From contig CAIIXF020000002.1 of assembly GCA_903813345.2 (NCBI GenBank), positions 27,287,223-27,351,222 on the forward strand: DNA of 64,000 nt. Reading direction: 5' to 3'. The notes beneath the pieces were generated by a model that was not told the origin of the DNA, did not search any database, and saw only the letters and a program-made list of their open reading frames with translations. This stretch comes from Owenia fusiformis (Eukaryota; Annelida; Polychaeta; Sabellida; Oweniidae). Shown piece by piece: positions 1,533-49,129 of the stretch. The stretch's first letter is position 1. Each line of letters begins with the position of its first letter. The translations under genes and the position numbers were made by a program.

Positions 1533-1925
1533 CCATAGAAGAGCAAATAAAAATCTATTTTGGAACTTACTGACTATCCATTGGATCATTTTTACGACGT
1601 TTTGTATTGACATTTGTATCGATAATTTTCATTGGCACTTGATTACAATGTATTAGCTACTCTGTCTGGAAACAAGGGTGGTCCATACATTGCTGTATGG
1701 AGAATCTGTCATGTGGTTCAAGAACTAGACGGTTTTTAATAAAGTTTATCATATTTTTCAGACATTACCATGGCTACACATTGATAATGGTGGCATTACA
1801 AATGGTCTCATATTCAATAAAAGTTGTTTCCTTTTGGTATTTATAAAAGGGCCTAGTTTTCAATAAACATGGTCTCCCAAAGTTATACACCTAGTAACTT
1901 GATTGTGAATATTTATAATGACAAA
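1533..1925 (-). pseudogene. Partial unprocessed copy of a CDKL5-like exon and its introns
   Basis: This stretch aligns almost base for base with 31165-31735, which is kinase-gene exon G (31201-31445) plus flanking intron on both sides. The copy keeps the splice donor and the minus-strand coding sense. It is broken in at least three ways. The glutamine codon before the Leu-Ile of the parent is TAG in the copy, at about 1655. About 91 bp spanning the acceptor end of the exon (parent 31381-31471) are missing at 1751. About 97 bp of intron (parent about 31613-31709) are also missing near 1898. Retained intron sequence argues against retroposition of a spliced mRNA, so a DNA-level duplication or copying of an unspliced transcript is inferred. 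Confidence 0.88.
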
Positions 1926-1972
1926 ATAGGCTATTCTCGTACATCAAAAGTCTGAGGAAAACAACTGACTCT

Positions 1973-3132
1973 GTGGCTCCTTTAAAAAAGGATGGAGTAT
2001 TGACCTGCGATAACATCGGCAAGGCCAATATACTCAATGAGCAGTTTCAGTTTGTTTTCTCCAAGGACCCTAACACCCCCTTGCCAGACAAAGGACATAG
2101 CCCTCACCCAACCATGCCGGACATCAACATCACCCAAGAAGGAGTCCGGAAGATGCTTGAAGGCCTGAACCCCAACAAGGCTAGTGGCCCAGACTCAATA
2201 CCATCTCGAGTCTTGAAGGAGCTGGCATCTGACATCGCCATGCCGCTCACACTAATCTTCCAGCGGTCACTAGATCAAGGCAAAATACCAGCTGACTGGA
2301 AGAAAGCCACAATATGCCCCGTCTACAAGAAGGGTGAACGATACAAGGCCTCAAACTACAGACCAGTGTCCCTTACCTGCATATGTTGCAAGCTTGCTGA
2401 ACATCTTCTAGTTAGCAACATGATGCAGTTTCTTGAGACCAATGGGATCCTGTATGACTTGCAACATGGTTTCAGGAGTAAGAGGTCATGTGAAACACAA
2501 CTTGTCACCTTTTTCCATGACCTTGTACTGGCGAATGACACTAATCACCAGACTGATGTCATAGTGATGGACTTTGCAAAGGCATTTGACAAAGTATCAC
2601 ATCGCCACCTGCTTTACAAACTCCAATACTACGGTATCAGAGGTCAGGCCAACTACTGGATCAAAGACTTCCTGCAAGCAAGAACCCAAAGAGTTAGTGT
2701 AGATGGAGTGACATCGGATGAGGCAGCTGTAACATCAGGAGTCCCCCAGGGGACTGTCCTCGGTCCGATCCTCTTCCTCATTTACATTAACGACTTACCT
2801 GATGTCCTGCAACATAGTACCTTGAGGCTTTTTGCAGATGACAGCATCATTTACAGACAAGTTGATTCACCACTCGATGCAGCATTACTACAAGAAGACC
2901 TTAATGCTGCAGTAGCCTGGGAAAATCAATGGCTGATGCAATTCCACCCAGACAAGTGCACTGTGCTGTCGGCAACTGGAAGACGAACACCTGCTGTCTC
3001 CATCTACAACATGCAGGGACATGCCCTTAAACAGGTATCGTCTGCAGAATATCTTGGTGTTACAGTGCAGGCAGACCTTAAGTGGAACCAGCATATTGCT
3101 AAATCCATAACCAAGAGTAACCAGCTCCTTGG
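1973..3132 (+). pseudogene. LINE reverse transcriptase, N-terminal part
   Basis: The frame carries the standard non-LTR reverse-transcriptase blocks in order: NKASGPDSIP, NYRPVSLT, the aspartate block DFAKAFDKVSH, the SGVPQGTVLGPILFLIYIND block, and the catalytic FADD box near 2830 (the usual YADD with Phe). A YLGV block follows near 3050. No internal stop is seen before the foldback insertion at 3133, where the genuine reading frame ends. The first codon here is GTG and homology continues upstream of it, so this is not a real start. The remainder of the ORF resumes at 4512. Confidence 0.92.
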
Positions 3133-4500
3133 GCTTTGTATAAAAAACCTCCTACCCACGTACCCTCGTACCCACGTACGTGGGTCCTGACCCAGTCTTT
3201 AAAGAGTTGCGTGGGTAGGAGGTTTTTTATACAAAGCCAGAACTATGGAAATAAACAAACGTTCTCCACAGTTTGTAACCTCTTTGCAGCACCCTTTGAA
3301 GAAATAAAGGCTAGCCTACAGTTTGGGGGCAGGGGCAGGGTAGTGTGATACGTACCTTTAAGTTCTACATAACTTACCTAAACAGTAAAAGCTCATGCAG
3401 ATCTGCCGTTCAAGTAGCACTGTCCGTCGTGTCCGACTGTTGCCTTCTTGTGTTCACACTTGAAAAGTTGCAAAGTTGCAAGAAAAGGGTTTGGAAACAT
3501 TTACTTCCTCTCATTTCTTACATTTGTACTCCAGTCAGGAGAATGCAAATCGAAATTACTTGCACCGCAATGGAAGCCTAATAGACGAATGCAACAAAAT
3601 TAGGTAAATAACATGAATAATCTAATAACGAAATATTTGAAAAGTAGAAGGATTCGCTACATTCGTTTTTAATCGCTTTTTGGCACAATTTAAGGATAAT
3701 TGTGCGCACTAGTTCAGTGAATCATTTAGATGGAATTAAAAGTTAGAGTTGCCAAACTTATGCAGGGGAGTGTAAGTTTGGTTTTGTAAACTTCGACATT
3801 ATTCATGGCCGTTTGATCCATAATTAGGTAATATGAAGAGTAGAGTTTTATTTTGACAATGATTTGATGTAAAACTGGTTTGAATGATAAAAGTTCAGCT
3901 TTGTAGTTTCTAGCTTTTTGCGCGTAAAATGTGAATACAATGGACAACAACGACACCAAATCTTTGACTAACATACGTTAATAACGTATAATATTCGTAA
4001 GAATGAATTCTAATAACATTTGAAATAAACATCTAATAAAATGTGGTGAATTTAATTGGTTGGAAACTCTAAGAAATATATTTTTAAAAAGATGTCAACT
4101 TTTGGACAAGGGTAAACTTCCGGGACATTTACAATCTGCATGAGGTAACAGGAGGCACGGATTGCACTGAACGAAGGCTAGGAGATTGCTAATCAGCACT
4201 GATGTGTTATACAGGTAAGACTGCCCGATCAACAAAAAACATTTCGACAATATCAAAAACATAAATCAAATAGCTCAAAAATAATGAACATTTATGCAAT
4301 TCCGGCTTTATTTTATTTTACTAGAGAGATGTCAGACCTATAAATAAAGGCATATGGATGCATAAATTCATCTATAATTCAGGATAAACTGAGATTGAAT
4401 AATGTTTTAAACATTTAAAAATTTAACTCTTTAAAGACTGGGACAGGACCCACGTACGTGGGTACGAGGGTACGTGGGTAGGAGGTTTTTTATACAAAGC
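3133..4500. mobile_element. Foldback transposon with about 75-bp terminal inverted repeats
   Basis: The left arm (3133-3207) and right arm (4427-4500) are inverted copies differing at about one position. Both begin or end with GCTTTGTATAAAAAACCTCC or its complement. The insertion is flanked by an 11-bp target duplication, CAGCTCCTTGG, at 3122-3132 and 4501-4511. Removing the insert plus one duplicate restores the LINE frame. The left end is asymmetric: after the 75-bp arm a second inverted copy of the outermost about 30 bp follows (to 3236), so the left end alone can form a hairpin. The interior (3237-4426) shows no transposase I recognise. Confidence 0.9.
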
Positions 4501-4511
4501 CAGCTCCTTGG

Positions 4512-5039
4512 CATGCTGAGACGTCATTTATGGAAAGCTCCTCAACATACTAAGCAGACTGCATATTTCACCCTGATTAGACAAAGGCTTGAATATGCAG
4601 GCTGTGTCTGGGACCCTTACACATCAACCCAAAAACAAGCTCTGGAGATGACCCAGCGAAGAGCAGCACGGTATGTCATGAATGACTTCAACCGTGTTAG
4701 CTCTGTCGGTGCTATGCTGTCCAAGCTACAATGGGAGTCTCTGGAGCAGAGAAGACAACAACAACGGCTCACCATGCTCTATAAAATCAACAATAGCCTA
4801 GTTGGAATTCCCAAGGACCAATATCTTGAAGCCCCCTCCCACAATAGACCCAGACGATTACAAGTAACTAACAGCCAAGCCTTTGTCCGCCACAGATACA
4901 ACAAAGATGTCACTTTGCAGTCTTTCTTCCCAAATACAATCAGGGAATGGAACTCCTTCCAGAATCAATAGTGACAGCGGGAACATTAGAAGGCTTTAAA
5001 ACCACGCTGGGTTCTTACTACCAAAACCCCATTCCTTAA
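4512..5039 (+). pseudogene. LINE reverse transcriptase, C-terminal part with frameshift
   Basis: This continues the LINE ORF after the foldback element. It contains the thumb and C-terminal region typical of CR1/Jockey polymerases, including RLEYAGCVWDPYT and a QRRAARYV block. At about 4952-4960 (AACTCCTTCC) one base appears to be missing: the expected Trp-Asn-Ser-Leu-Pro reading becomes Trp-Asn-Ser-Phe and stops at 4971. In the shifted frame about 26 more family-like codons continue to a TAA at 5037-5039. Confidence 0.85.
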
Positions 5040-6494: not shown

Positions 6495-12227
<5,733 letters not shown>

Positions 12228-12590: not shown

Positions 12591-12997
12591 AGTATTGGTT
12601 ATTAGTGTATTTATTTAGGTTAGGTTATTAAACTGTTAAATAGATAATATTGCAGATCTTTTGGAAGATTTACATTTAACATCGTGAAGAACGCGATGCT
12701 TGCTCAATTGGAAACATTGCTTGCAAATTTTGTCAACCTTTATAGATGTGATTCCACCTTTAAATGAGATATTAGCAAAGACTACTACATAGAGATGTAA
12801 TTGTTGTTTCCAAAAACCGAAGTTTGAATGATTTTATCTTGCTTTGATATTTCCAGAAGAAGATATCGGTCCATTTATCGAATAATTTAAGACACCAGGT
12901 TGAGCCACTTGAGTTTTTGAGAAGGTCCCTTGTAAAAGTTGACAAATCAATCTATTGACCTACTACCTGATAACAAGAAAGTTAGGTTTACACTTAT

Positions 12998-14649
12998 TAG
13001 ACTCCAGATGAAATCTGGAGTCTATTGTTTTTGCCTGTTTTCTTATTATTTTTATTATTCTTCTTTTTTCTTCCTCCTAACAGATTTTCTCTCCAACTAT
13101 AACATCTTACTTAATCCAACTTACATGGTTAACTAAAGACTGTATCCGGCTTTCTGGGAAATTAGGTCAAATTTTTATCTAGGTCAAAGGTCAAGAACTA
13201 GGTCAAATCTTACATTTTCAACATTCTTCATCATATCTTCGTCAATATTCTTCGTAACTCCTTCATCTTTTTTTTATCGTGTAGCTTAGAAAAAGGCAAA
13301 TCAAAGATATGACATCAGAATTTTGATTACTCTTACCGATTTTGAGATATGGCGTCCGGAAAGTAGGTCAGAACAAAAAGTTCTCCAAATTCAACATGTG
13401 AGTTATGCAATAAGTGTAGAATGATCTCAGGAATCCGAATCTGCAAACCAAATTTGAATCGGACTTCCGGTTCGGAAGTTATGGCGTTTTGAAAGCTCAA
13501 AAATCGCTAAATTTGGTGCCTATGTTAAGTCAATGGGAAAAAAGACTTTTTCGAAGTGTAAAATACAAGATATAGACTGAGTACAGCTTAACATAATGAT
13601 TGAATGCTTATAAAAGAAGGGGACCTCAAAAGCTACATAATTTCAAAATTTGGACACCAAAATGCCTAGGTCAAAATCTAGGTCAAATTCATAGTTTTTC
13701 CTTATTTTTACGATTCTGATACTACACTTTAATAATTTACTTCAAAATTTTGTATACAGGTAGCAAAGAGTATGCTAATAGTGTTAGCCTTTTGCCGTCA
13801 GAAAGTATTTTGACCTACTTTTGAGATATGGTGTCCGAAAAGTAGGTCAAAATAAAAAGTTCTCCAAATTCAACGTATGAGTTATGAATTAAGGGTAGAA
13901 TTTTCTAAGGAATCCGAATCTGCAAACAAAATTTCGATCCGACTTCCGGTTCGAAAGTTATGGCGTTTTGAAAGCTCAAAAATCGCTAAATTTGGTGCCC
14001 CATGTCATGTCAATGAGAAAAAGGATTTTTTTGAAATGTCAAATACCAGATATAGACTAAGTACAGCTTAGTATTCTAAAAGCCTATAAAGGAGGGGACC
14101 TCGAAGGCTACCTAGCTTTAAAATTTGGACGCAAAAATGCCTAGGTCAAAATCTAGGTCAAATTCATAGTTTTTCCTTATTTTTGCGATTCTGACATTAC
14201 ACTTTAAGGATTTGCTTCAAAATTTTGTATACAGGTAGCAAAGAGTGTGCTTATAGTGTAAGCCTTCTGCCGTCAGAAAGTATTTTGACCCACTTTTGAG
14301 ATATGGTGTCCGAAATGTAGGTCAAAATAAAAAATTCTCCAAATTTAACGTATGAGTTATGAATTAAGGGTAGAATTTTCTCAGGAATCAGAATCTTTAA
14401 ATCAAATTTCGATCTAACTTCTGGTTAGATAGTTATAGCGGTTTGAAGTCTCGAAAAGTCGATATGATGATATCCCCATGTTAAGCTTATAGAGTTGAAG
14501 ATAGCCTTCTTAAAAGTTGTCTAAATGTCTATATTCTAGCTGACTCAGCTTATTCTGAATGATTCAGCTTACAAGTTTTTGATGACTCAGCTTAAAAAAA
14601 GTTTGAAATCTGGAGTCTTAAATTGAACTTGTTCAATTTACATGTCTAG
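12998..14649. mobile_element. Helentron-like unit 1 with internal tandem repeats
   Basis: The unit starts near a 12-bp-stem palindrome (12998-13024, core GACTCCAGAT). That subterminal motif returns as ATCTGGAGTC at 14608-14617, followed by a 20-bp hairpin AAATTGAAC/GTTCAATTT (14620-14639), a 6-base spacer and terminal CTAG (14646-14649) before TT. Inside are about 2.5 copies of a 478-bp repeat rich in AGGTCAA, with GAGATATGGYGTCCG at about 13342, 13822 and 14298. Subterminal inverted repeats, a 3' hairpin before CTAG, insertion next to T and a tandem core match Helentron/HINE-type rolling-circle elements. No Rep/helicase ORF is present, so it is non-autonomous. Confidence 0.72.
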
Positions 14650-16417
14650 TTATTCATTCTTTCTTTCTTTCTTTCCGAACACTTTTTCTCAGCAACTAGA
14701 AGAACTTACTTTAACCTACTTACATGGCTAACATAGCCCATCAACCTAGTTTCTGGGAAATTAGGTCAAATTTTTATCTAGGTCAAAGGTCAAGAACTAG
14801 GTCAAATTTAGGTAAAATCAACATTCTGTCAATTATCTTCGTTGCTTATTGTCGTTACTCCTTCATCTTTTTTTCATCATGTAGCTTAGAAAAAAACAAA
14901 TCGAGAGTGTGCCATCCGTTTTTTGATTACTCTTAGCGATTTTGAGATATGGCGTCCCGAAAGTAGGTCAAACTAAAAAAGTTCTCCAAATTTAACATAT
15001 GAGCTATGGAATAAGGGTAGAATTTCCTCAGGAATCCGAATCTGCAAACCAAATTTCGATCCGACTTCCCGTTCGAAAGTTATGGCGTTTTGAAATTTCG
15101 AAAAAAATCGATCTGATGTTATCCTGATAGAAAGTCAAGGAAAAAAGATTTTTTTGAAGTGTAAAATACGAGAGATAGATTGAGTACAGCTTAAGATAAT
15201 GAATTCCTATAAAAGAAGGGGACCTCAAAAGCTACCTAGTTTCAATATTTGGACACCAAAATGCCTAGGTCAAAATCTAGATCAAATTCATAGTTTTTCC
15301 TTATTTTTGCGATTCTGGCACTACACTTTTAGGATTTGCTTCAAAATTTTGTATACAGGTAGCAAAGAGTGTGCTAATAGTGTTAGCCTTTTGCCGTCAG
15401 AGAGTATTTTGACCCACTTTTGAGATATGGTGTCCGAAAAGTAGGTCAAAATAAAAAATTCTCCAAATTTAACATATGAGTTATGAATGAAGAGTAGAAT
15501 TTTCTCAGGAATCCGAATCTGCAAACCAAATTTCGATCCGACTTCCGGTTCCAAAGTTATGGCGTGTCCGAAAAGTAGGTCAAAATAAAAATTCGCCAAA
15601 TTTAACGTATGAGTTATGAATTAGGGGAAGAGTTTTGTCAGGAATCCGAATCTTTAAATCAAATTTCGATCCGACTTCCGATTCGGAAGTTATGGCGTTT
15701 TGAAATTTCGGAAAATTGATCTTATGGTATCCTGATAGAAAGTCAAGGAAAAAAGATTTTTTTGAAGTGTAAAATACGAGATATAGATTGAGTACAGCTT
15801 AAGATAATGAATTCCTATAAAAGAAGGGGACCTCAAATGCTACCTAGTTTCAATATTTGGACACCAAAATGCCTAGGTCAAAATCTAGGTCAAATTCATA
15901 GTTTTTCCTTATTTTTGCGATTCTGGCACTACACTTTTAGGATTTGCTTCAACATTTTGTATACAGGTAGCAAAGAGTGTGCTAATAGTGAGAGCCTTTT
16001 GCCGTCAGAAAATATTTTGACCCACTTTTGAGATATGGTGTCCGTAAAGTAGGTCAAAATAAAAAGTTCTCATAATTTAACTTATGAGTTATGAATTAAG
16101 GGTAGAATTTTCTCAGGAATCCAAATCTGCAAACCAAATTTCAATCCGACTTCCGGTCAAAAATTCCTACTTACCTACCTACTCGGCTACCTACTTAGCT
16201 ACTTACTCAGCTACCTACTCAGCTACTTACTCAGCTACCTACTCAGCTACTTACTCAGCTACCTGCTCAACTACTTATTCAGCTACTTACTCAATTACTT
16301 ACTCAATTACTTAATCATCTACTTACTCAGCTTCCTACTCAGTTACTTACTCAGCTCTTTACTCAAGTAAATCAATCTGGAGTCTTAAATTGAACTTTGT
16401 TTAATTTACCAATCTAG
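14650..16417. mobile_element. Helentron-like unit 2, directly following unit 1
   Basis: Begins directly after the CTAG of unit 1 and realigns with the interior of unit 1 (a TTCTTTC-rich start, then CTTACATGG, then the AGGTCAA-rich repeat). GAGATATGG units occur at about 14943, 15421 and 16030, with an extra about 131-bp partial duplication near 15560. The end repeats the pattern: ATCTGGAGTC, an imperfect hairpin at 16387-16407, then CTAG at 16414-16417 before TT. A 12-bp minisatellite lies just before this end. Confidence 0.72.
16166..16370. repeat. 12-bp CTACTTACTCAG minisatellite
   Basis: About 16 variants of CTACYTACTCAG in tandem, inside Helentron-like unit 2. A short degraded version (GACTCAGCTTA repeats) sits at the matching place of unit 1, about 14535-14600. 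Confidence 0.92.
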
Positions 16418-16622: not shown

Positions 16623-17023
16623 CACTGCTACCCACCTAGTTACACAGACGTATCGTCAGCGTATCATGGCTGAACTACTTCCGGGATTTGAATTTGGTAA
16701 GATATTTTTATTTCTCTTTTGTTACACTGACGATCGGCATTAATATTGCCAATATTACACTGTTATTGGTCGTTCGTCAGTGTAACAAAAGCGAGGGACT
16801 AAATACTCGAATTGTGTCTTCGTTAACATATAAAACCTAAAACCATCGACATATTCTCAAACTAGACTATCTTCCTTAACTTCGAGCCAAATTATTATCC
16901 ACAACGTGACTTATAAGTAGTTGTAAATCGGGAAATAAAAAAATCTTACCGAAACCTAGTCCCGGAAGTAGTTCCGCCATGATACACTGACGATACGTCT
17001 GTGTAACTAGGTGGGTAGCAGTG
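16623..17023. mobile_element. Foldback MITE, 401 bp
   Basis: Inverted ends of about 90 bp begin CACTGCTACCCACCTAGTTA and end with the complement. TGTAG is repeated on both sides (16618-16622 and 17024-17028), a possible 5-bp target duplication. A second inverted pair built on GTTACACTGACG lies inside (about 16720-16790). There is no convincing coding sequence. Confidence 0.82.
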
Positions 17024-18475: not shown

Positions 18476-18935
18476 TAATATGTAGAGATGTCACGGGTCA
18501 GATATCTTTCTAATATTTTAATTCAGAAATCTTTTCAATATTGAAACTTTCCTCCTCCAGAAAACAAAATTGATCGGTTTTTGAAAGATTTTTTCAGCCA
18601 TTTTACACACTTAAATTCTATCCCATTTATTTCCTTCAAGTACTACATACATGAAGCAAAGTGTTGATAATGTTGGACAAAAAGATTTGAACATGTTGTA
18701 GTGAAATGTTTAATCATGACATACAAATTTTTGATCACAAGTGGTGAAATATTTGTTGGTGTGTAGTTAATTGTTGACCGTGGTAGCCTGGACAGTTCAC
18801 TTATTGCTTAACATTTAATATGACTAGGCCTAATATTTTGAGAATTCAAAAGTATCTAACATGTCTAATACCAGTTAGTATGTAAGATAATTAAATTTAT
18901 TAAAATTAAAATAAAACAAGGCATTAACATGCAAA

Positions 18936-19650
18936 ATGTCACTACCTGCCATTTGTTATAAAGGGTGTCAAATGGCGTTGTGCCCCCCCCCCCCCTCCAC
19001 GGCATAAACTAGGAAAGATACACACACATACCATATACCATTGGAAAGAGCATTTAATTGTTGTTAACATGTGAAAAGATGAAGATGTATGATGGAAAAT
19101 AAGATATATTTTTAATTTACTTTTAAAAGTGAGTATGACCCCCTTGGGCAGCCTTAACCGCTGCCAATCTAGCCGGATATGAAGCTAAAATGGAATGGAA
19201 AAGGGCTGTGTCTTTCTCAAGAGATTTTAATACTTCGTAATGAAACTAGCACCCTCATCTCGGGCTTCTCTAAATGCAATACACCTTATTCTGTCTCTAT
19301 ATTGCTGATTATCATCATCAAAAAGTTGTTTTGTCATCTTTATGTCAACTGTGAACTAGCTTTAGTCTAAATAAATAAAATATTAAAGGCACTACACTTT
19401 ACAGTCAGCCACTTCTCAAAAATCAATGAAATAGAGCACTACACTAGTATATTTCAAATGCATGTGACACTATGTAGCAATATCATCTAGGGTTTATTTT
19501 ATCCAGAATTGAATGCTCTTTCCAATGACATACATAATGTGTAGGTACCTTTCAAGTTTATGCTGTGGAGGGGGGGGAGGCACATGGAACACTAACTGTC
19601 ACAAAAGTTGGGAGACTATAACAATATGTCACCACTTGTGCTGGTGACAT
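18936..19650. mobile_element. ATGTCACCACC-family MITE split by a foldback element
   Basis: The outer ends are ATGTCACTACC and CTGGTGACAT, as in the about 100-bp copies at 27541 and 43199. An insertion at about 18966-19600 has its own inverted ends: a poly-C tract next to CTCCACGGCATAAAC on the left and GTTTATGCTGTGGAGG on the right, with GGAAAGAGCATT and AATGCTCTTTCC further in. Confidence 0.75.
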
Positions 19651-22087
19651 AAAAACAACAAATAAATGACATAAAATATGTCACAACTTCTTGGTACTGA
19701 CATTAACTAGGAAACGCACAAGATTCTGAACAAAATATTCCAATAATTTTTGATATTTATTATGTTCACTGTTTAAATAACAATATTATGCATAAATGCA
19801 ATTTGCATTCAGCTGGTGGAACATGCATGCATAACGTATAAAATAACTACTGTTGCCATAGTGATTTATATTTGCATGCATTACAATAACTTATGACTTA
19901 TATCATACAACTTATAATTACAATTAACTATACATGTAAAGTATGTACATATTGACATGTACATATGTTTATGTACTTATATTTACATGAATTTATGCTA
20001 CTATACAGTGTGTACAATATGAAGATAGTTGCAGATTGAGTGAGAAAATTGCCCAAACTTTGAGAATACTTTGGCATTAATTCTTTTGTTTTACATGTAT
20101 TTACAATATTCATTGGCATACATGGTGATGGCATATTTCAAGATTGAACTTCACTGTTATAACAGCTATATGGAAGGAACCGAAATACCCTTGGACCAAG
20201 GAAGGGAGGGGGGGGGGCTCTTTCAGAGGTACATCATTCTTATCTTAAAGTAAGACAGTGAAACCTGTATATCATTACATTTGTCACTATGAAGACTTTT
20301 TTCTCAGTCCCAATTTTTAAGACACACATTAAGAAATATTGGAAATGTGAATACCTGCTAATTTGAACACTTTTCATGTTTTGGCTTGTCCCAGAGGCAT
20401 TCAGATTATAATGGTTTAACTTTACAATATTTATTGGCATACAAGGATATACCTAATCATATCATTAGCCAAATATTTACAATGTTTATTGGCATATCAG
20501 GGGGAAGAGTCTATCATAACAGAAATCCATGTTTTATCTTGATACATCCACCATTGACACACCGGAAAAGCCTGACTACGGTAAAGTTAGTTTCCGTTGT
20601 CACAAATAGCGGACATAACTGTCGCTTCAACTGTTTAATCACTTGGTCCTCATTTCATGGGATTTTATCATCGCTAATTCTGTGCATGTATTAAGCTCAT
20701 GTGATGATGTTTCATATGAAATCCCAATTTCGATCAAATTGGGTCGTGAATCGCCACAATATAGCGTCTTCGATATCGTCAATGACAACGGAATCTGAAT
20801 TTGAGTAATTTTGAAAGACAACGGCATATGGTAATTGAAGTGAAGAACATTATTACTGTACAATGAGTATTAAGACATTTTGATTGATTGTTGTTCCAAA
20901 GGAATTTAGTCTAGGTGCCCTATTAAACATACAGTTCATGAAAATCTAATTGAAGCGATGGTTAAGTCCGCATTTGTGACAACAGTATCTGACTTTACCA
21001 TTGTCAGGCTATTCCGGGGTGATTAGGGAAACAAGAGAATCTTAAAGTTTCTACAAAGTATCGTAAATCATATCTTTCTAGCTATCACGTGCAGTTTTTG
21101 GCTTATAACTGAACCAACTGGAGATACCCTGACCCCCTCCCTATATCCTATGACTTTGATCATACGATTTATTCTTCAGTTCTCATGTAATTAATTGGCA
21201 CTTTTTGATAACCTGGATTAAATAAAAATATAAATATTGGATAGTATTGTTTATACAAATGTACAATTATATAGCAAAACAATATAAGCAAATCAATAAT
21301 GTATATATGTTTTTAAAATTATTGGAGGGACGACCAGTTGTTTGATTTTCTGCCCTTTTTTCTCAGTCCCATCTGTTGTATTCTTACATGACTTGTTGCT
21401 ATAGTAGTGAAGCACTTACAAAGACATTGCCAAATAATTAGAAAAATGTCATTTATCCATTTAATTGAAATGTTTTGAACTATATTTTCTACCCTAAAAT
21501 GTAAATATCCACATAAAAATGTGATTGAAATACTACTTTCACATACTAATGTATTTGGTTCTGTAATTATAATCATGAAAATAGAAACTCTCATAATGCA
21601 GATATACCTTGACAATTAGGATGCTACTTAATTAACCTTAATATATTTTCATGAAAAGCATGGACCATGTCCAGTTGTCACTGACTCTATTATCTTTTTA
21701 CTATGAGGTGTATTATGGTGCTGTAAGTTGAACACACAGGCCCGTAGCCAGGAGGGGGGGGGGGGCTTCGATGGGTTTGAGCAAACCCCCCCCCCCCAGC
21801 CAAAAAATCTTTCAAAATCATGCAGTTTTTCACCATTCTGAGCACTTTTTAAGTGATTTTGGCCATTTTTGGACAAAAATTGACACAAGTGAACCCCCCT
21901 AAAATTTTTAAAAAGTGAACCCCCTGGCAAATCCTGGCTACAGGCCTGACACATATGGGCACATAGGTAATGTCTAATTAGAGATTGGTACAGACAATAG
22001 GTGGTAATTTAAGAATATTGTATAACTCATTGTATATCTCATTTCTGCATCAAGATATTGAACAAATATTTCACTCTATTGAGGTGA
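19651..22087. other. Intergenic, no gene seen
   Basis: AT-rich with many TACATGTA-like words. A partial CAGTGAAACCTG-type MITE end is at about 20250, and a MITE lies at 21737-21948. No exon with coding character was recognised. Confidence 0.5.
21737..21948. mobile_element. MITE with G/C runs next to its ends
   Basis: The ends CAGGCCCGTAGCCAGGA and TCCTGGCTACAGGCCTG are inverted copies with about two mismatches. Poly-G and poly-C tracts sit just inside. ACACA is present on both flanks (21932-21936 and 21949-21953), a possible target duplication in low-complexity sequence. Confidence 0.75.
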
Positions 22088-23776: not shown

Positions 23777-26700
23777 CTGAAAATTAGAAATGGGGGTTAA
23801 AATATGTTATAATCAAAGAAACAACATTTATTTCTATGAATGTTCATCTCTCTGGTAGTGATGTACTATTAACATCCTATGGACATCCTACGAAGCGTCA
23901 AAAATAAAAATAAATAGCTCTGAGAAAGAAAATCAACAACTTTGTTAATGGTAACATTTATTTGGTATTTGTACTGTCACATAACAATTTTGGTGGGACT
24001 CACTACTATTATTTGATAAGACTATTAAGTGATGATCAACACAATGCAGGAAGTATCAGATCTAGTAAGTGGGGTGGGGTGCCAGTGGTCAGTGTTTTGA
24101 CAAAAATAGTTTTCTGACTTTAATTAAGACAACAACTAAACAGACAAAACAAACCTTATCAACTGGTGTCTGGGTGAGCTTTCTAAGAGCTACCCCTTGT
24201 TTGTTGTACTGAGGAGGGTCCCTGTATGGGGGTGCATCTCTGTATTGTCCTTGACCCACAAAGTAACCTTGACCTTGGTGGTGACCTTGACCTTGAAGTT
24301 CCCTGGGACTGTTGTCATTGCTACCTCCTGCTGACCTTTGACCTTCAGAGTTTGACTGGTCCATCAGCTACAAAAATAAAGATTGCCATAATATCACATG
24401 GATCATCATTTAAAGATCGAATGTATAAGGGTGATCATTAAGTTCTCATATCTCTATATGTTTCATTCTTTAATATATCGTAATGAAATCTTCACAGAAT
24501 TTGACACAAACAAGAACATTAATCCAGCAAAAGAAATTAGTTTATTAGAGAGATATTACAAGACCTTTTGATCACTCTTCATATGATAGTTGACTTTACA
24601 TTATGAACCATTCACTTGCTAAACTGGGGTCACTGGCTACAATCAAGGGACAAAAATAAATAGTTCAATGTTAACATTTCCAATGACTTACCAGTTGCAT
24701 TCTTTGGTCATGGCGTTTCTTTTTCTTCTTTTTAAATAAAGCTTGTAGTGAGTTCTTATCTTTCTCTCTGTCGAATCTATCATAACTGTCTCCAGGACTG
24801 AAATCAAGTATGTACCATTGTCACACTTTTGAATGTTACAGCATGATAGGTGGAATAATCACAATCGACCAACTTTTTGAGAGACAATATCTCCATAGAA
24901 TTTCATGCAATGTACTCAAGACTTATAACTAAAGTACTCATCACTTACATTTCATGTATTACTAACTAGTATTCAAAATATTTTCTGGATGGATGGACAG
25001 ACTGATTGACGGATGATGGACTTTACTATATCCCTATTAAACTTCATACATTGGGAGAATCATATTTAGTTCTAGAGTGTACTCACTACTTACATCAAGG
25101 GTACTCATACTCATTACTTATCATTGTGTACTCTTTTCTTACATTGAGAGTATTCATACTCATTACTTATACATTGTGTACTCACTACTTACATCAAGAG
25201 TACTCACACTCATTACTTATCATTGTGTACTCATTACTTACATGGAGAGCACTCATTACTTCTATATTGTGTACTCATTACTCACATTTGTTGCTGATTG
25301 TCCATATTCGTCTGAGATGATGAATATTTGACAATAGATTTGTTCTGGGGTGAGGATCCACGTCTTCCCTGACCTCCTTGACCCCCAGGCTCTCTATAGA
25401 TACCAATATCTGAAATCAAGACAAACATGTGCTGATTTTGTTGTATAGCAAAAATCAGTGTGATGCCGATGAATTTACATATCCTAAATATAATGATTTT
25501 ACAGAATTGAACTAATTGACATGAATGGACATGAATTTTTTTTTAATTTTGATTTTTAAATTGCATGCAAAAATTAGGCATGTCTCATTACCTAGTATTT
25601 AGTGTATCTTACACCATGAACAGTGGAAGAACTTTGAAAGACAATAGCAAAATGTTTATTATTCAAAATTCTCATGTTTTTCTGAGCAGAATGTATGAAA
25701 TCTACATTACTTTGCATAAAGGAGGATAATTTAGTAATATGGGGGCCATTAACAGAAGCTTCATAAAGTTAAGAATTCGTAAAACCCATTGTTCTCTACC
25801 TGTGACATCATTATATCCAAGGTTACAATAATTGATTTACGAATTCGTAACTTTACTAAGTTTCTGTTAATGACCCCATGGTTAGTTTATTACCATGGTA
25901 ATAATCAGGACTTTTCCTATAAACAAAACATTGCCAAAATAATCATGGGTACAATACATACTGAAGGAAAGTAGATGACTGATTAAAGGAAATAAAGTAC
26001 AGGTAAAAGTAGGTCTGAAATAAACAAAAATCAAAAGCAATGCAAAATGACAATTAACATGCATGTTACAAATTTCACTATTAAGTATAGAATCCACTCA
26101 TTTCTGAGAATTTTGCATCAACTGAATGACAAGAATGAAAGGATTGAAAATTCTAAAAGCTGCAGCAAATAAAGAAGATGTACTTCATATCATTGCATAC
26201 AGTTACAAATAAAGATACTAAAGGCTGAATGCATTATGTAATAATAATAATAGATTATAGAAAAGCAAAAAGGTTTCCACTCGCCATGCCTACAGGGGAG
26301 TAAACAGAGGGAGTAAGTTGGATAAAAAGAAGAGTTTCTCACATTTCTGACTGTATAGGGGGCCTTTAAGACTTTTAAGTGGTTCTAAAAACAAACATGT
26401 GAATGATATGTGACAATACATGTGTATAGTGAAAATGGTGGAAAGAAAATGAGTTAACAGGGTGAGCACAAAGTGGAATCCACAAATCCTTAGGTTCTGT
26501 TTTTTGGGCCACCCTGTATAATATACAGCAAAACTTGTTTAAAGTGAGTGTCAAAAAGAGTCGAATTGGCTAGACCCAACATTTTACCCTCTGGAATCTT
26601 TTTCTAAATGAAATATCTGTACAAAATATATAAACTTTGGGGTTCCCAAAATCATCCCTTGATGCTTTTATACTGTCCAGCTAAATATCAATTTGTCATA

Positions 26701-29700
26701 AATCAACAAATCGACACATTCACAATAAGATTTGGAATCTTGACAGTTGGTATATACAGAGGATAATTAAATGAAAATTATACCACCCAATTCAAAATAC
26801 CCACAGTACATCTTTAAAGGGACATCCCATTAATGGTACCAAAATAGAGTTTAAGTGTTCACTTTAAATAGATGTTCACTTACACAGGTTTTACTGTATA
26901 TTTCATAATGAAACACATTTGACACATTCTTAGATCCACAATAGCACTATATGCTTTATTTATACAAGAATCTATAACACACTAGAAATGGGTGAGCTTA
27001 TGGGTGTGATCTAACTATGGGTTAGGAAAACAAACAAAAAAACTAAAATATAGGCTGAAAAACACAAAAAAATTAACAGAGGATTAATGTCCACATATCA
27101 GTTTCTATAAATGAAGTATTAAAACATTTCCATCTGTATATATAAACAAAAGTTCTTGTTCTCATTTCCAACAGTGAATCATCATAGGCCTCATTTCAAA
27201 CTTTTTTTTATTATTTGTAAACTATTTTCCGTTACTTAAAAGTTATTCTTGATATTCCCTTCGAACAAAACTTATTTGCCTTTAGTTTTACAAAATTCAA
27301 CAGAAACTGATATTATGGCACTTTCTATGAAAAACATAAATATCTAAATAAATAAATAAATAAACAAATGTTTTGTTTAACTTGGTACCTTCTACAGATG
27401 GCATGCTGGGATCATTGTTGGCTAGGCTAGGGTCTGTAATCAACAATGCATCACAATCAAATAATGCATCACAATCACAAACAATGCATCACAATCAGAA
27501 ACAATGCATCACAATCACAAATAAGGTATTAATATGCAAAATGTCACCACCTGCGATTTGTTACAGACACTGAACGCCGGACGCCTACCATCACAAAATA
27601 TGGAGACCATAACAATACGTCAACACTTCTGGTGGTGACATAACAATGTTTCACAATCACAAATAAAAATCATATCAAAGATAACAACTTCCGATCCAAT
27701 CATAACGATAAATAGCATGCATTTAAAAAACAAATTCAGATATAAACAGCTAAAAACATGGAGTTCACAGTGATCACCAAACATAAAAAAAACAATGTTT
27801 TTCTTTGTATCTGTCAGTATTTTTTTTTTTTTTGTATTTGACCACATCCATTTACAGACAAACACAACAAGCTATCAATACAAAGTGGAGGAATTGCTGA
27901 ATTTCCCAATTTGTTACCAAGAGAAACCCATGATTATATCTCCTTAGTTAACTACTTTCCCATTTTGTTACCAAGACAAACCAATCATAATATCTAATTA
28001 GTTGAGTACTTTCCCATTTTGTTACCAAGACAGACCCATCATTATATCTCATTAGTTGAGTACTTTCCCATTTTGTTACCAAGACAAACCCATCATTATA
28101 TCTCATTAGTTGAGTACTTTCCCATTTTGTTACTAAGACAAACCCATCATAATATCTCATTAGTTGAGTACTTTCCCATTTTGTTACCAAAACAGACCCA
28201 TCATTATGTCTCATTAGTTGAGTACTTTCCCATTTTGTTACCAAGACAAACCCATCATTATATCTCATTAGTTGAGTACTTTCCCATTTTGTTAACAAGA
28301 CAGACCCATCAATGTGAAAGGATTTAAGCCAAGGACTCAATGTATTGTATGATGATTTAACAATGTATGTGTTGTTTCCAGACCTTTGCATGAGTGCAGC
28401 AGCATGAATGCAAGGTCTAGGAAACAATGCATTAAAAACATCAACAATGCATTGAGCCGTGTGCTTAAATTAAGGAATAAATAATGATAGGCCATTCAAT
28501 ATGGTGAAATTCAGCACGAGTTGGACAGAATGTTGTACAAAGCACGAACCGAAGATTGAATAGAGCATGGTCGTGCATCTATGGAGAATTAGAGAACGTT
28601 CTATATTGGCTATGCTGCATTCTGATTGGTTGAGAAATTCGAATAGAGCACGATCACGTTTGAATTCATTTCACATATATCAAAACAATATATACAGAAT
28701 AAAATGTCACTTGAATTTTTTGCATGGAAACTGTGCCACCAAAACTTCTCATTCAAGATTCAACAGAATATATGTGTATTGCTGTTTTATAGGATACACT
28801 GCTGGGCTGTTTCTTTAGATTATACATTCAATTCTTATACAGAAAACATCAATCTATTAAAAAAATACTCTTGACATCTTAAATTTTATTTGATTAACAT
28901 AGCACGTACACAACTAATTATCAAGTAATTAAATCCACATTACCGTAATAATGGCCTTTAGTTCGCTTATCACGTGATGCAGTTCCAGCTCCCGACCCGA
29001 CACTTCCATTGGGAAACGTCTTGTATTTGCCTTGGCCTTGGGGGTCCTGGTATTTTGCTTGCCCTGAGTTATCCAGAGACTGACTGACCAATGACGCTTG
29101 AGCAAGCTGTAGCGGAAAATAAATAGCGGAAAATATAAAATAAAAAATCTGCTCCGTCAAGATCTTTAAGTATTCAAATTAAAAATGATAACTTGTCTAA
29201 ATAAGCCATTACTGTGTTTAAATAAAATAAAAAGGCTGCATAATTTTGAAGTTGACAAATATAAATTTATGTTTAAATTTTGATCTATATGTGCACATAA
29301 TTGTACATATTTTGACCAAGGATTCATATAATATATTTATGCTCATTTCTCTAGTAATAACAGATCAAATTTCTCTTATTGATATTTTTAAAGTCATGAG
29401 GATGTTAGATGTGATCCATTTGTGACCCAACTTGCAATTATACCTTGCATCCTCAATGGTGATAAAAATATCTTGGAGAAAAAAAGTTTATTATGCTGTA
29501 ACATATTTAGTTTTGTTGAGTTTTGTTTTATCAAGGATTGATGCTGAAAAGTTTGTGTATACTTTGCTGCATCATATCTCGTATGCTAAACACAGGGGAC
29601 AGGACACAATTCACTTTTGGATCTAATTTGGCGCTACATATTTTGGAGGAATTGCTGTCTTGAGCATTAGGTGGCTACTTAATTTGGCGGATTTGTAATA

Positions 29701-43078: not shown

Positions 43079-44401
43079 CTGAAATTTGAAAAAATATGTA
43101 TAAATATAAAACCGTTTTAGGCTATGTTTTTTTTCATTTGAGGCACATAACAATTATGTATAGCCATGTCAATATTTGACAATGCATTAAGATGTAAAAT
43201 GTCACCACCTCCAATAGTTACAGATGCCAAATACCAACCGCAAAACACCATTGCAAAAAATCTACAGACCATAACAATATGTCACCACTTTTGGTGGTGA
43301 CATAACAAGGTATAAACAACAAAAATGTTAGACTGATGGTAGAAAGTATAAACTTTGTTCATTGCTATGGCAACCAATATTTTCCATAATCCAAAGATGT
43401 CAAGCACTTACACCAAGCTGAAAACCTGTTGCAAAAATGGTAGCTATAAACTAATAACATTTAACATAACTGTTGTTATGACAACAACACTTGGATGTAT
43501 GGATGAAATACATGTACTTAATGAGCAATGTTTCGTTTAGACCTCACATGATAAAGTCAAGAATCCAGAATGACATTACACTTTTTATATTTATAAACAG
43601 CCTTTTTTATTACAAACACACACCCTAATTCCAGTCTATCTAAATAAACTGTGAATTCTGGAAGGAGCAGTGTTAACACTAACTACATGATCATATTATA
43701 TAGGCTTAGAGGTTTGAGAATACTATGTCTAGATATTCAGCAAATGATTTAATGATACATGAATTTTACATGTTGCAAGATGGTAACTGGAAATCAGCTC
43801 TCCCAATTAATTATAGATATACTCTGTGAACAAACCCATCTAATATGTAGTCAGACAGTACCTGGCATGTATGGAAAAAACAATTTACTGAAATATGAAT
43901 AGGTAATTAACACAGGACAGCTATGCTGAACAAGCCTCCCAATAAATTGTAAACTAAAAGAGCATGCAATATGTCACTACCTGCCATTTGTTACAGATGC
44001 TGAATACCAACAGTCATAACCAAAACACAACTGCCATGTCAAACACTGAGAAAACGAGAAAATAAAATTTATTTGGAACAACTCTATTGAATCAGTCTCC
44101 CAAAAGATTAAAAACGAATGTTAAAAATCAAAAAGAAAAATGAGAAAATAAAATTTATTTACCGTAATACAGTAGTGTGTTTCCTGAAACTGGCAAACTG
44201 TTCTACCAATGTGTTTTTTTCAATATTATGGAACAGCTTATCGGATCACAGTGGGAAACTGATATATTTTTAAATCCGAACTGAACACATGGAAAATATT
44301 TCTCTTATCATGACACAGATACTTGTCTAGTTACAGGACTTCTACTTCTATGTCATCACGACCTGCCAAAAATTAAAGTGCAGTCTTCACTTGCTAATAA
44401 C
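43079..44401. other. Upstream flank of the CDKL5-like gene
   Basis: 5' intron or flank, AT-rich. Contains MITEs at 43199-43303 and from 43971. A non-coding first exon must lie upstream of 43078 but was not identified. Confidence 0.5.
43199..43303. mobile_element. MITE of the ATGTCACCACC family, complete copy
   Basis: 105 bp, with ends ATGTCACCACC and GGTGGTGACAT exactly inverted. Confidence 0.85.
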
Positions 44402-48578: not shown

Positions 48579-49129
48579 CAGGGTGGTCAAAAAAAATGGA
48601 AACCCTGCATTTTCCTCATATCTTTGTCACTTTAAGAAATTACTCCCTGATATTTCACACATTTGTAAATCATTCAATTTCCCACCACCCTACTATATTT
48701 CATGACCATCAGACTGATAGTCACAATTTTACAGCACTTTGAACAACATGCTTCAGGTTTGGCCATCATCGCGCTGGAGGCAAACCTGCACAGCTGTCAA
48801 TGATTCAAATGCATTCCTCAGCAGGTATGGCCTGAATGATACAGATAATCTCTCTTTTGAGGTCTGCAATTGTCCTGGGGTCATTATTATACACTTTATC
48901 TCTGCCATAGCCCATAGGGAAGGACATTTTGGACGTCATGTGCAGGTTGGTCTTCAGCGCAATAGTGGCCACTGGGAATGTTCTTTAAAGTGCTGTAACA
49001 TGTTGACTATCAATCAGATGGTCATGTAATATGGTAGGCTGGTAGGAAATTGAGTGATGTACAAATGTGCAAAGTTATTTCTTAAAATAATAAGCATATT
49101 ATGAAAATGGTGTAAGGGTTTCCAGTTTT
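48579..49129 (-). mobile_element. Mariner-like element, inverted and end-truncated copy
   Basis: Left end CAGGGTGGTC after TA. The interior is the reverse complement of the element at 8248, including a minus-strand transposase remnant with RTIADLKREI and IPAEECI. The right side stops at about 49129, lacking the last about 12 bases of the terminal repeat. Confidence 0.8.

Follow-up and report, generated by a model that had tools for sequence, protein, structure and literature searches.

Two diverged, HINE-like units lie head to tail in a 64-kb window of Owenia fusiformis DNA

INTRODUCTION

The Cg_HINEs of Crassostrea gigas are non-autonomous Helentrons (HINEs) with a 5′ subTIR that, as outlined in PMC7492417, is normally 11-12 bp long and is followed after 1-12 bp by its inverted copy (IR). 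A microsatellite, central tandem repeats with a monomer consensus of 138-181 bp and a 3′ subTIR with a palindrome complete the element, which occupies T-rich targets. The DINE-1 and Helentron-HINE families, in the account of PMC4067079, have subTIRs, an IR, a microsatellite or central repeats, a 3′ stem-loop and a preference for TT; in the mite HINEs covered there, a subTIR lies 2 nt from the end and the 3′ subTIR 38-60 nt from the 3′ end. The same account includes proto-Helentron-Pi of Phytophthora infestans, a 14-kb coding element of Helitron-like structure that has 5′ TT and 3′ CTAG and sits between A and T.

Elements of this kind can also be neighbors. Distantly related Helitrons that directly adjoin are reported in bat and maize, and bat and silkworm are cited as hosts of tandem Helitrons that arose when termination signals were bypassed (both in PMC4067079). 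In many plant tandem Helitron arrays (Xiong et al. 2016, as relayed by PMC12628747 and PMC8268682), multiple 5′ ends accompany one 3′ end.

Here we analyze a 3.4-kb locus in Owenia fusiformis (assembly GCA_903813345.2, contig CAIIXF020000002.1). "The window" denotes the whole stretch of DNA that was analyzed, 64,000 nucleotides in length. An earlier note on this DNA had described the locus as two head-to-tail Helentron-like units and had read them as a concatemer produced by replication through a terminator, perhaps satellite DNA being born. The Helentron-like description is supported, since unit 1 shows the sequence features of a HINE insofar as a single copy reveals them. We consider the concatemer and satellite-birth reading possible and do not favor it.

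RESULTS

Setting of the locus

By gene content, the window is eukaryotic and animal-like. An alpha-tubulin exon ends near 7984, coding resumes at 11101 past a 3.1-kb intron, and the locus starts 770 bp past the tubulin stop codon. A Pfam scan also found a reverse transcriptase domain (RVT_1), whose enzyme we read as non-LTR-type, and there is a probable WD40 exon with matches under the Pfam cut-offs.

Other repeats occur in the window. The alpha-tubulin intron (7985-11100) is full of ~135-bp repeats and holds a 173-bp block in duplicate; it also carries 144-bp inverted arms at 8280-8792, and this segment is found again, inverted, at 48600-49073. The reverse transcriptase frame (1922-3190) seems to be broken by a segment with 77-bp inverted repeats that are 99% complementary (3132-4501), and the frame past this segment (4435-4971) had no Pfam match. 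An inverted-repeat element with 92-bp arms lies at 16623-17023, 205 bp past unit 2. A short repeat family with TATGTCACCAC or GTGGTGACATA words, partly in hairpins, is dispersed at 18914-19673, 27519-27664, 37089, 43177-43326 and 43949. Finally, 27902-28311 holds 7.6 copies of a 54-bp repeat whose minus strand is open and would encode a repeating 18-aa peptide.

Anatomy of the two units

Unit 1 (12998-14649) and unit 2 (14650-16417) are made up of the following features:

12998-13024, plus strand: unit 1 5′ subTIR (12998-13009), 3-nt loop and inverted copy, IR (13013-13024); a 12/12 hairpin, in unit 1 only
13025-13339, plus strand: unit 1 left flank, a T-rich microsatellite and then a block with four AGGTCA words (13151-13208) that is identical in unit 2 (alignment)
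13340-14474, plus strand: unit 1 core, about 2.3 monomers of ~478 bp in the order a1 b1 a2 b2 a3 (tandem-repeat search and alignment)
13806-13854, plus strand: 49-nt palindrome with perfect 17-bp arms at a b/a junction; copies with mismatched arms at 14281, 15405 and 16013
14475-14607, plus strand: unit 1 tail, the start of a third b module, weakly alignable, with three ACTCAGC/ATTCAGC words
14608-14649, plus strand: unit 1 3′ end, subTIR ATCTGGAGTCT (14608-14618), hairpin (14619-14640) and 9 nt ending in CTAG
14650-14940, plus strand: unit 2 left flank without subTIR/IR, opening with TTATTCATTC in the microsatellite; 58-bp AGGTCA block at 14750-14807
14941-16157, plus strand: unit 2 core, a1 b1 a2 a3 b2 a4, lacking one b module at a TATGGYGT joint near 15556-15566
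16158-16374, plus strand: 12-bp satellite CTACTTACTCAG, about 16 copies (TRF, 16175-16365)
16375-16417, plus strand: unit 2 3′ end, subTIR (16375-16385), hairpin with one G.T pair (16386-16408) and 9 nt ending in CTAG

Unit 1 is complete. Its 5′ hairpin, TAGACTCCAGAT-GAA-ATCTGGAGTCTA (12998-13024), folds at -10.8 kcal/mol (z -6.5), and 0 of 200 shuffles fold as well. The 3′ subTIR of both units is an 11/11 inverse of the 5′ subTIR, and both have a hairpin 9 nt from CTAG. The T-rich, microsatellite-like stretch is visible by eye in both units and absent from the output of the tandem repeat finder.

A scan for an exact 10-bp 5′ hairpin, its right arm repeated downstream and a 3′ hairpin with an exact 8-bp stem found only this locus in the window (both strands). 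The same three-part pattern was absent from 60 Markov windows (one strand each). Because an exact 8-bp stem was demanded, the scan missed the 3′ hairpin of unit 2. Pairs of hairpin and arm that have no 3′ hairpin are found elsewhere in the window (for example at 3154, at 19625 and in the 8-11 kb region) and were not counted as HINEs; the Markov windows held a mean of 0.08 such pairs (maximum, 2).

Ends of the units and their junction

The earlier note had given both units the same 3′ end, with a hairpin, CTAG and TT, and this was borne out. ATCTGGAGTCTTAAATTGAAC has exactly two copies in the window (14608 and 16375) and none in 100 shuffles even at 3 mismatches. Each copy is followed by the hairpin, 9 nt ending in CTAG and then TTAT, and 21 bases of the two 3′ ends are identical. 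The inner hairpin, that of unit 1, folds at -5.2 kcal/mol, versus -3.1 kcal/mol for the outer one of unit 2. For unit 1, 5 of 200 shuffles fold as well as the hairpin with its subTIR, and 1 of 200 as well as the hairpin alone, whereas the unit 2 hairpin is not significant by itself (26/200 with the subTIR, 11/200 for the hairpin alone).

The start GACTCCAGAT is present in unit 1 (12/12 hairpin) and absent from unit 2, at the start of which there is no copy at ≤1 mismatch and the best match in 14640-14800 is 7/11. Unit 2 can be aligned to unit 1 only from the microsatellite on and is collinear with it thereafter. With no 5′ subTIR/IR hairpin in unit 2, the locus has a single 5′ end against two 3′ ends. 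The sequence across the junction is CTAG-TTATTCATTC. The 5′ hairpin of unit 1 has TATT on each side; if such a hairpin were excised from unit 2, the observed junction would result, which leaves room for an old dimer.

TTAT precedes unit 1 and follows each of the two units, with T on both flanks; it may be target, element end or duplication. The subTIR lies 0-2 nt from the 5′ end versus 31-32 nt from the 3′ end. The 5′ boundary may alternatively be placed at A/TTAGACTCC, giving an element with 5′ TT, 3′ CTAG, A/T flanks and a subTIR 2 nt from the end.

Upstream, 83 bp before unit 1, positions 12884-12914 (minus strand) form a 31-bp inverted match to 16361-16391, within the inner portion of the unit 2 3′ end (84% identity, E 0.015, blastn against the window). 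In this one of eight comparisons (two 3′ ends by two 300-bp flanks), none of 300 shuffles reached the score. The 3′ end of unit 1 against the same upstream flank, inverted, was reached by 2 of 300 shuffles, and the other six comparisons were unremarkable (47 to 195 of 300). The match may be the remnant of another or earlier HINE end, or it may be due to chance.

Comparison with described elements

We regard the locus as very probably a HINE. A HINE is recognized by a 5′ subTIR of 11-15 bp with an adjacent inverted copy or palindrome, which unit 1 has (12 bp, 3-nt spacer) and unit 2 lacks, and by an inverted 3′ subTIR followed by a hairpin 8-35 nt from the terminus, which both units have. The left-flank microsatellite and central tandem repeats are also present. 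By the cut-offs of Thomas et al. given in PMC4067079 (80% for a subfamily, the family being judged by the subTIR), the last 60 columns of the two units (44/60 identical) fall below the subfamily level, and their identical 11-bp subTIRs place them in one family.

Like the Cg_HINEs, as portrayed in PMC7492417, the locus has a 5′ subTIR/IR, a microsatellite, central tandem repeats, a 3′ subTIR with a palindrome and what may be a T-rich target. Compared by description, not by sequence, it differs from them in its monomer of ~478 bp and in the 12-bp satellite that unit 2 adds before the 3′ subTIR. It shares with DINE-1 and the Helentron-HINE families of PMC4067079 the subTIRs, IR, microsatellite or central repeats, 3′ stem-loop and perhaps the TT preference. 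It differs in having its subTIR 31-32 nt from the 3′ end, nearer than in mites, and no autonomous Helentron partner was found among the window's scanned ORFs.

Canonical Helitrons, as presented in PMC4067079, resemble the locus in their 3′ end: CTAG fits CTRR, and the hairpin lies 9 nt from the end. They differ in that the locus has inverted subTIRs and no 5′ TC, its 5′ end being TTAGACT, TAGACT or AGACT. Insertion between A and T fits only if the element starts at TTAG. If unit 1 is read in this way, from A/TTAGACTCC to CTAG/T, it resembles proto-Helentron-Pi in having 5′ TT and 3′ CTAG between A and T; unlike that coding element, as depicted in PMC4067079, the locus is non-coding and has subTIRs. 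The plant tandem arrays, going by PMC12628747 and PMC8268682, are likewise tandem rolling-circle elements tied to satellite formation, but the arrangement of the Owenia locus is reversed, with one 5′ end and two 3′ ends.

Core modules, divergence and the 12-bp satellite

The ~478-bp tandem cores that had been noted earlier were recovered as a repeat of period 475 in unit 1 (2.3 copies, 88% matches; TRF), and identity is 84-92% in the six pairwise comparisons of full-length monomers. Each monomer can be divided into two modules, a (about 133-155 bp) and b (about 325 bp). The order is a1 b1 a2 b2 a3 plus a diverged b tail in unit 1 and a1 b1 a2 a3 b2 a4 plus the 12-bp satellite in unit 2. A 49-nt palindrome is present at all four b/a junctions (z -8.4, -3.5, -6.1 and -5.1).

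Between the units, 1,282 of 1,593 aligned columns are identical (80.5%), with 206 of 265 in the left flanks. In a tree of the seven a modules, a1 pairs with a1 (95/95) and u1_a3 with u2_a3 (88/86), while the a2 and a4 modules, the other three, do not separate further. Where the tree resolves them, then, a modules pair by position, and the tandem array is thus older than the split of the units. For the b modules, the grouping follows the unit (100/100; four rows, the poorly aligned unit 1 tail left out). Those within unit 2 are identical at 312 of 324 positions, which indicates that they were homogenized after the split. Within unit 1 the figure is 286 of 323 (88.5%), little above the 84-87% seen between units, so homogenization is weak in unit 1.

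All 4 × 11 bases of the subTIR arms are identical. Under joint decay in place, the probability that these 44 sites would all stay unchanged is about 0.01 at the overall divergence, 0.006 at that of the left flanks and 0.06 at a core-like divergence, figures that presume uniform neutral change. Because the arms stayed identical, most of the divergence between the units is probably older than their adjacency. Selection on the ends or gene conversion between the units could mimic such low divergence.

The earlier note had placed a 12-bp satellite at the same position in both units, degraded in unit 1. The satellite is clear in unit 2 (15.9 copies, 16175-16365), but a degraded array in unit 1 is poorly supported: the three ACTCAGC/ATTCAGC words in the unit 1 tail are spaced 19 and 23 bp apart, not 12. 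These words do beat shuffles (9 and 4 of 1,000 reach their scores), and they score 18 against the 12-bp unit, versus 16 for the array-free left flank of unit 2. They sit in the putative third b module, which aligns weakly (53-59% identity to the other b copies). A common origin of these words and the 12-bp satellite is possible.

AGGTCA half-sites

The AGGTCA words, noted earlier in the cores as AGGTCAA, are strongly clustered: of the 55 occurrences in the window, the 3.4-kb locus has 23 (all but one on the plus strand) and the other 60.6 kb have 32. WAWNTRGGTCA is a binding-site consensus of ROR-type receptors, and 18 of its 21 matches in the window fall in the locus, versus 2.2 expected for the whole window. 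Both counts overstate the evidence, because the repeat copies are not independent. An AGGTCA cluster at 24270-24344 was considered as a second element and set aside, since by eye it is probably coding sequence on the minus strand.

The left flanks, otherwise ~71% alike, share an identical 58-bp block (13151-13208 and 14750-14807) with four AGGTCA words, including a perfect DR1, AGGTCAAAGGTCA. None of 100,000 permutations of the left-flank columns reached such a run. The longest identical run over the whole unit is one of 60 bp in the core (4 of 5,000 permutations); long runs of identity thus occur outside the left flank as well. Both runs may reflect gene conversion. For the 58-bp block, constraint and gene conversion may each account for the identity, which looks the same in sequence under either.

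Across the pairwise alignment, AGGTCA columns are identical at 71 of 73 positions versus 1,211 of 1,520 elsewhere (47/49 versus 1,179/1,487 when the left-flank block is left out), and AGGTCA ranks first in constancy among 37 frequent hexamers. Its excess constancy is not significant across the seven a copies (6/6 versus 97/149, p 0.18) or across four b copies, the unit 1 tail being left out (11/12 versus 245/311, p 0.47). The ISX of Drosophila is a Helitron-type element. It is described as a mobile element that spreads binding sites. Our literature search found no related report joining AGGTCA with a Helitron in the text that it returned, its sole match being judged unrelated.

Search for relatives and partner

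Within the 64-kb window, no further copy of the locus was found; blastn gave seven short matches, the best being the 31-bp match described above. A Pfam scan of 10 of the window's 13 ORFs of at least 120 aa found no Rep/helicase-endonuclease domain. Exact-pattern scans gave one match in viral contigs (L001, at one place, with a self-complementary hairpin pattern that matches on both strands) and none in prokaryote contigs, in neither of which relatives are expected. Blastn of 13098-16417 against plasmids gave no match.

DISCUSSION

Taken as a whole, the locus is probably best explained as two diverged copies of one HINE family lying head to tail, and we lean, by a little, towards their having been juxtaposed. 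A Helentron Rep/helicase-endonuclease acting in trans would nick the T-rich 5′ end, rolling-circle replication would copy the element up to the 3′ subTIR, hairpin and CTAG, and the copy would insert at T-rich DNA. The left flank of unit 2, being T-rich, would be a preferred target, and unit 1 would have landed against it. The tandem core would already have been present in the common ancestor of the units; it would then have been reshuffled, and unequal exchange or gene conversion would have homogenized it, with the clearest signs in unit 2. We infer the mobilization in trans and this order of events, as well as the manner in which unit 2 lost its 5′ subTIR/IR, probably truncation or excision of the hairpin.

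We rejected insertion of unit 1 into an intact unit 2, since the sequence upstream of unit 1 contains nothing recognizable as a left half of unit 2 (for 12880-12997 against the unit 1 left flank, 241 of 300 shuffles reach the score); simple nesting would need unit 2 to have been truncated beforehand. Other observations also stand against the juxtaposition of diverged copies. Unit 1 has TTAT at either side, which might represent a 4-bp target duplication, unexpected for Helentrons, and the upstream 31-bp inverted match is left without an explanation.

A concatemer formed by read-through of a terminator should consist of units that are identical at birth and have complete internal 5′ ends, whereas the units here are 80.5% identical and no 5′ end is present at the junction. 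For these reasons, a recent read-through dimer was rejected as the first choice, and the proposal that satellite DNA is being born here is unsupported on the same grounds; the locus is probably not satellite DNA at that moment. It is possible that a read-through concatemer later lost a 5′ end and decayed. In that case a dimer would have inserted once, the second 5′ hairpin would have been excised between its TATT repeats, and the units would have diverged in place. The head-to-tail order, the shared remainder of the left flank, the core and the 3′ end all speak for such a history, as do the junction CTAG-TTATT-CATTC, which is what excision of a TATT-flanked hairpin would leave, and the bat and silkworm tandems from bypassed termination signals mentioned in PMC4067079. 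We nevertheless think it unlikely, given ~20% divergence between units with identical subTIR arms and a junction that has no 5′ end; moreover, the published model removes terminators, and many of the arrays it covers combine multiple 5′ ends with one 3′ end (PMC12628747), the opposite of what is seen here.

The remaining explanations account for parts of the structure. A crossover between two HINEs, their arrays or their microsatellites, fusing a complete element to a 5′-deleted one, would suit the reshuffled modules and the loss of a unit 2 b module at the TATGGYGT microhomology, and oyster Helitron/satellite loci are said in PMC12628747 to be built by insertion, deletion, tandemization and recombination; a random crossover would rarely hit exactly the CTAG end, however, and we hold this to be rather unlikely. 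A composite element with one origin and two terminators, which would move whole or, if the first terminator were obeyed, as unit 1 alone, would suit the single intact 5′ end ahead of two 3′ ends and an inner hairpin that folds better than the outer (-5.2 versus -3.1 kcal/mol). With a single copy known in the 64-kb window, such a composite is quite doubtful. We give still less credence to its extension, in which both terminators work, selection holds the nuclear-receptor-like half-sites in the left flank, and the family disperses binding sites and breeds satellite arrays. As for a TIR or foldback transposon with a TTAT target duplication, TTAT does occur on both sides and the subTIRs are inverted, but the repeats lie asymmetrically, at 0-2 nt from the 5′ end versus 31-32 nt from the 3′ end, and the hairpin and CTAG lie outside them on the 3′ side only, which makes this origin highly improbable.

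Because tandem-repeat HINEs of molluscs and adjacent or tandem Helitrons are already published, the locus represents a new family of a kind already known. Two diverged copies lying head to tail add to the HINEs a family with an unusually long monomer, whose core evolved partly by position and partly by local homogenization after the two copies had parted. They also illustrate how a pair of neighboring copies can pass for a concatemer. If the AGGTCA block is functional, the family would be another mobile element that spreads regulatory motifs.
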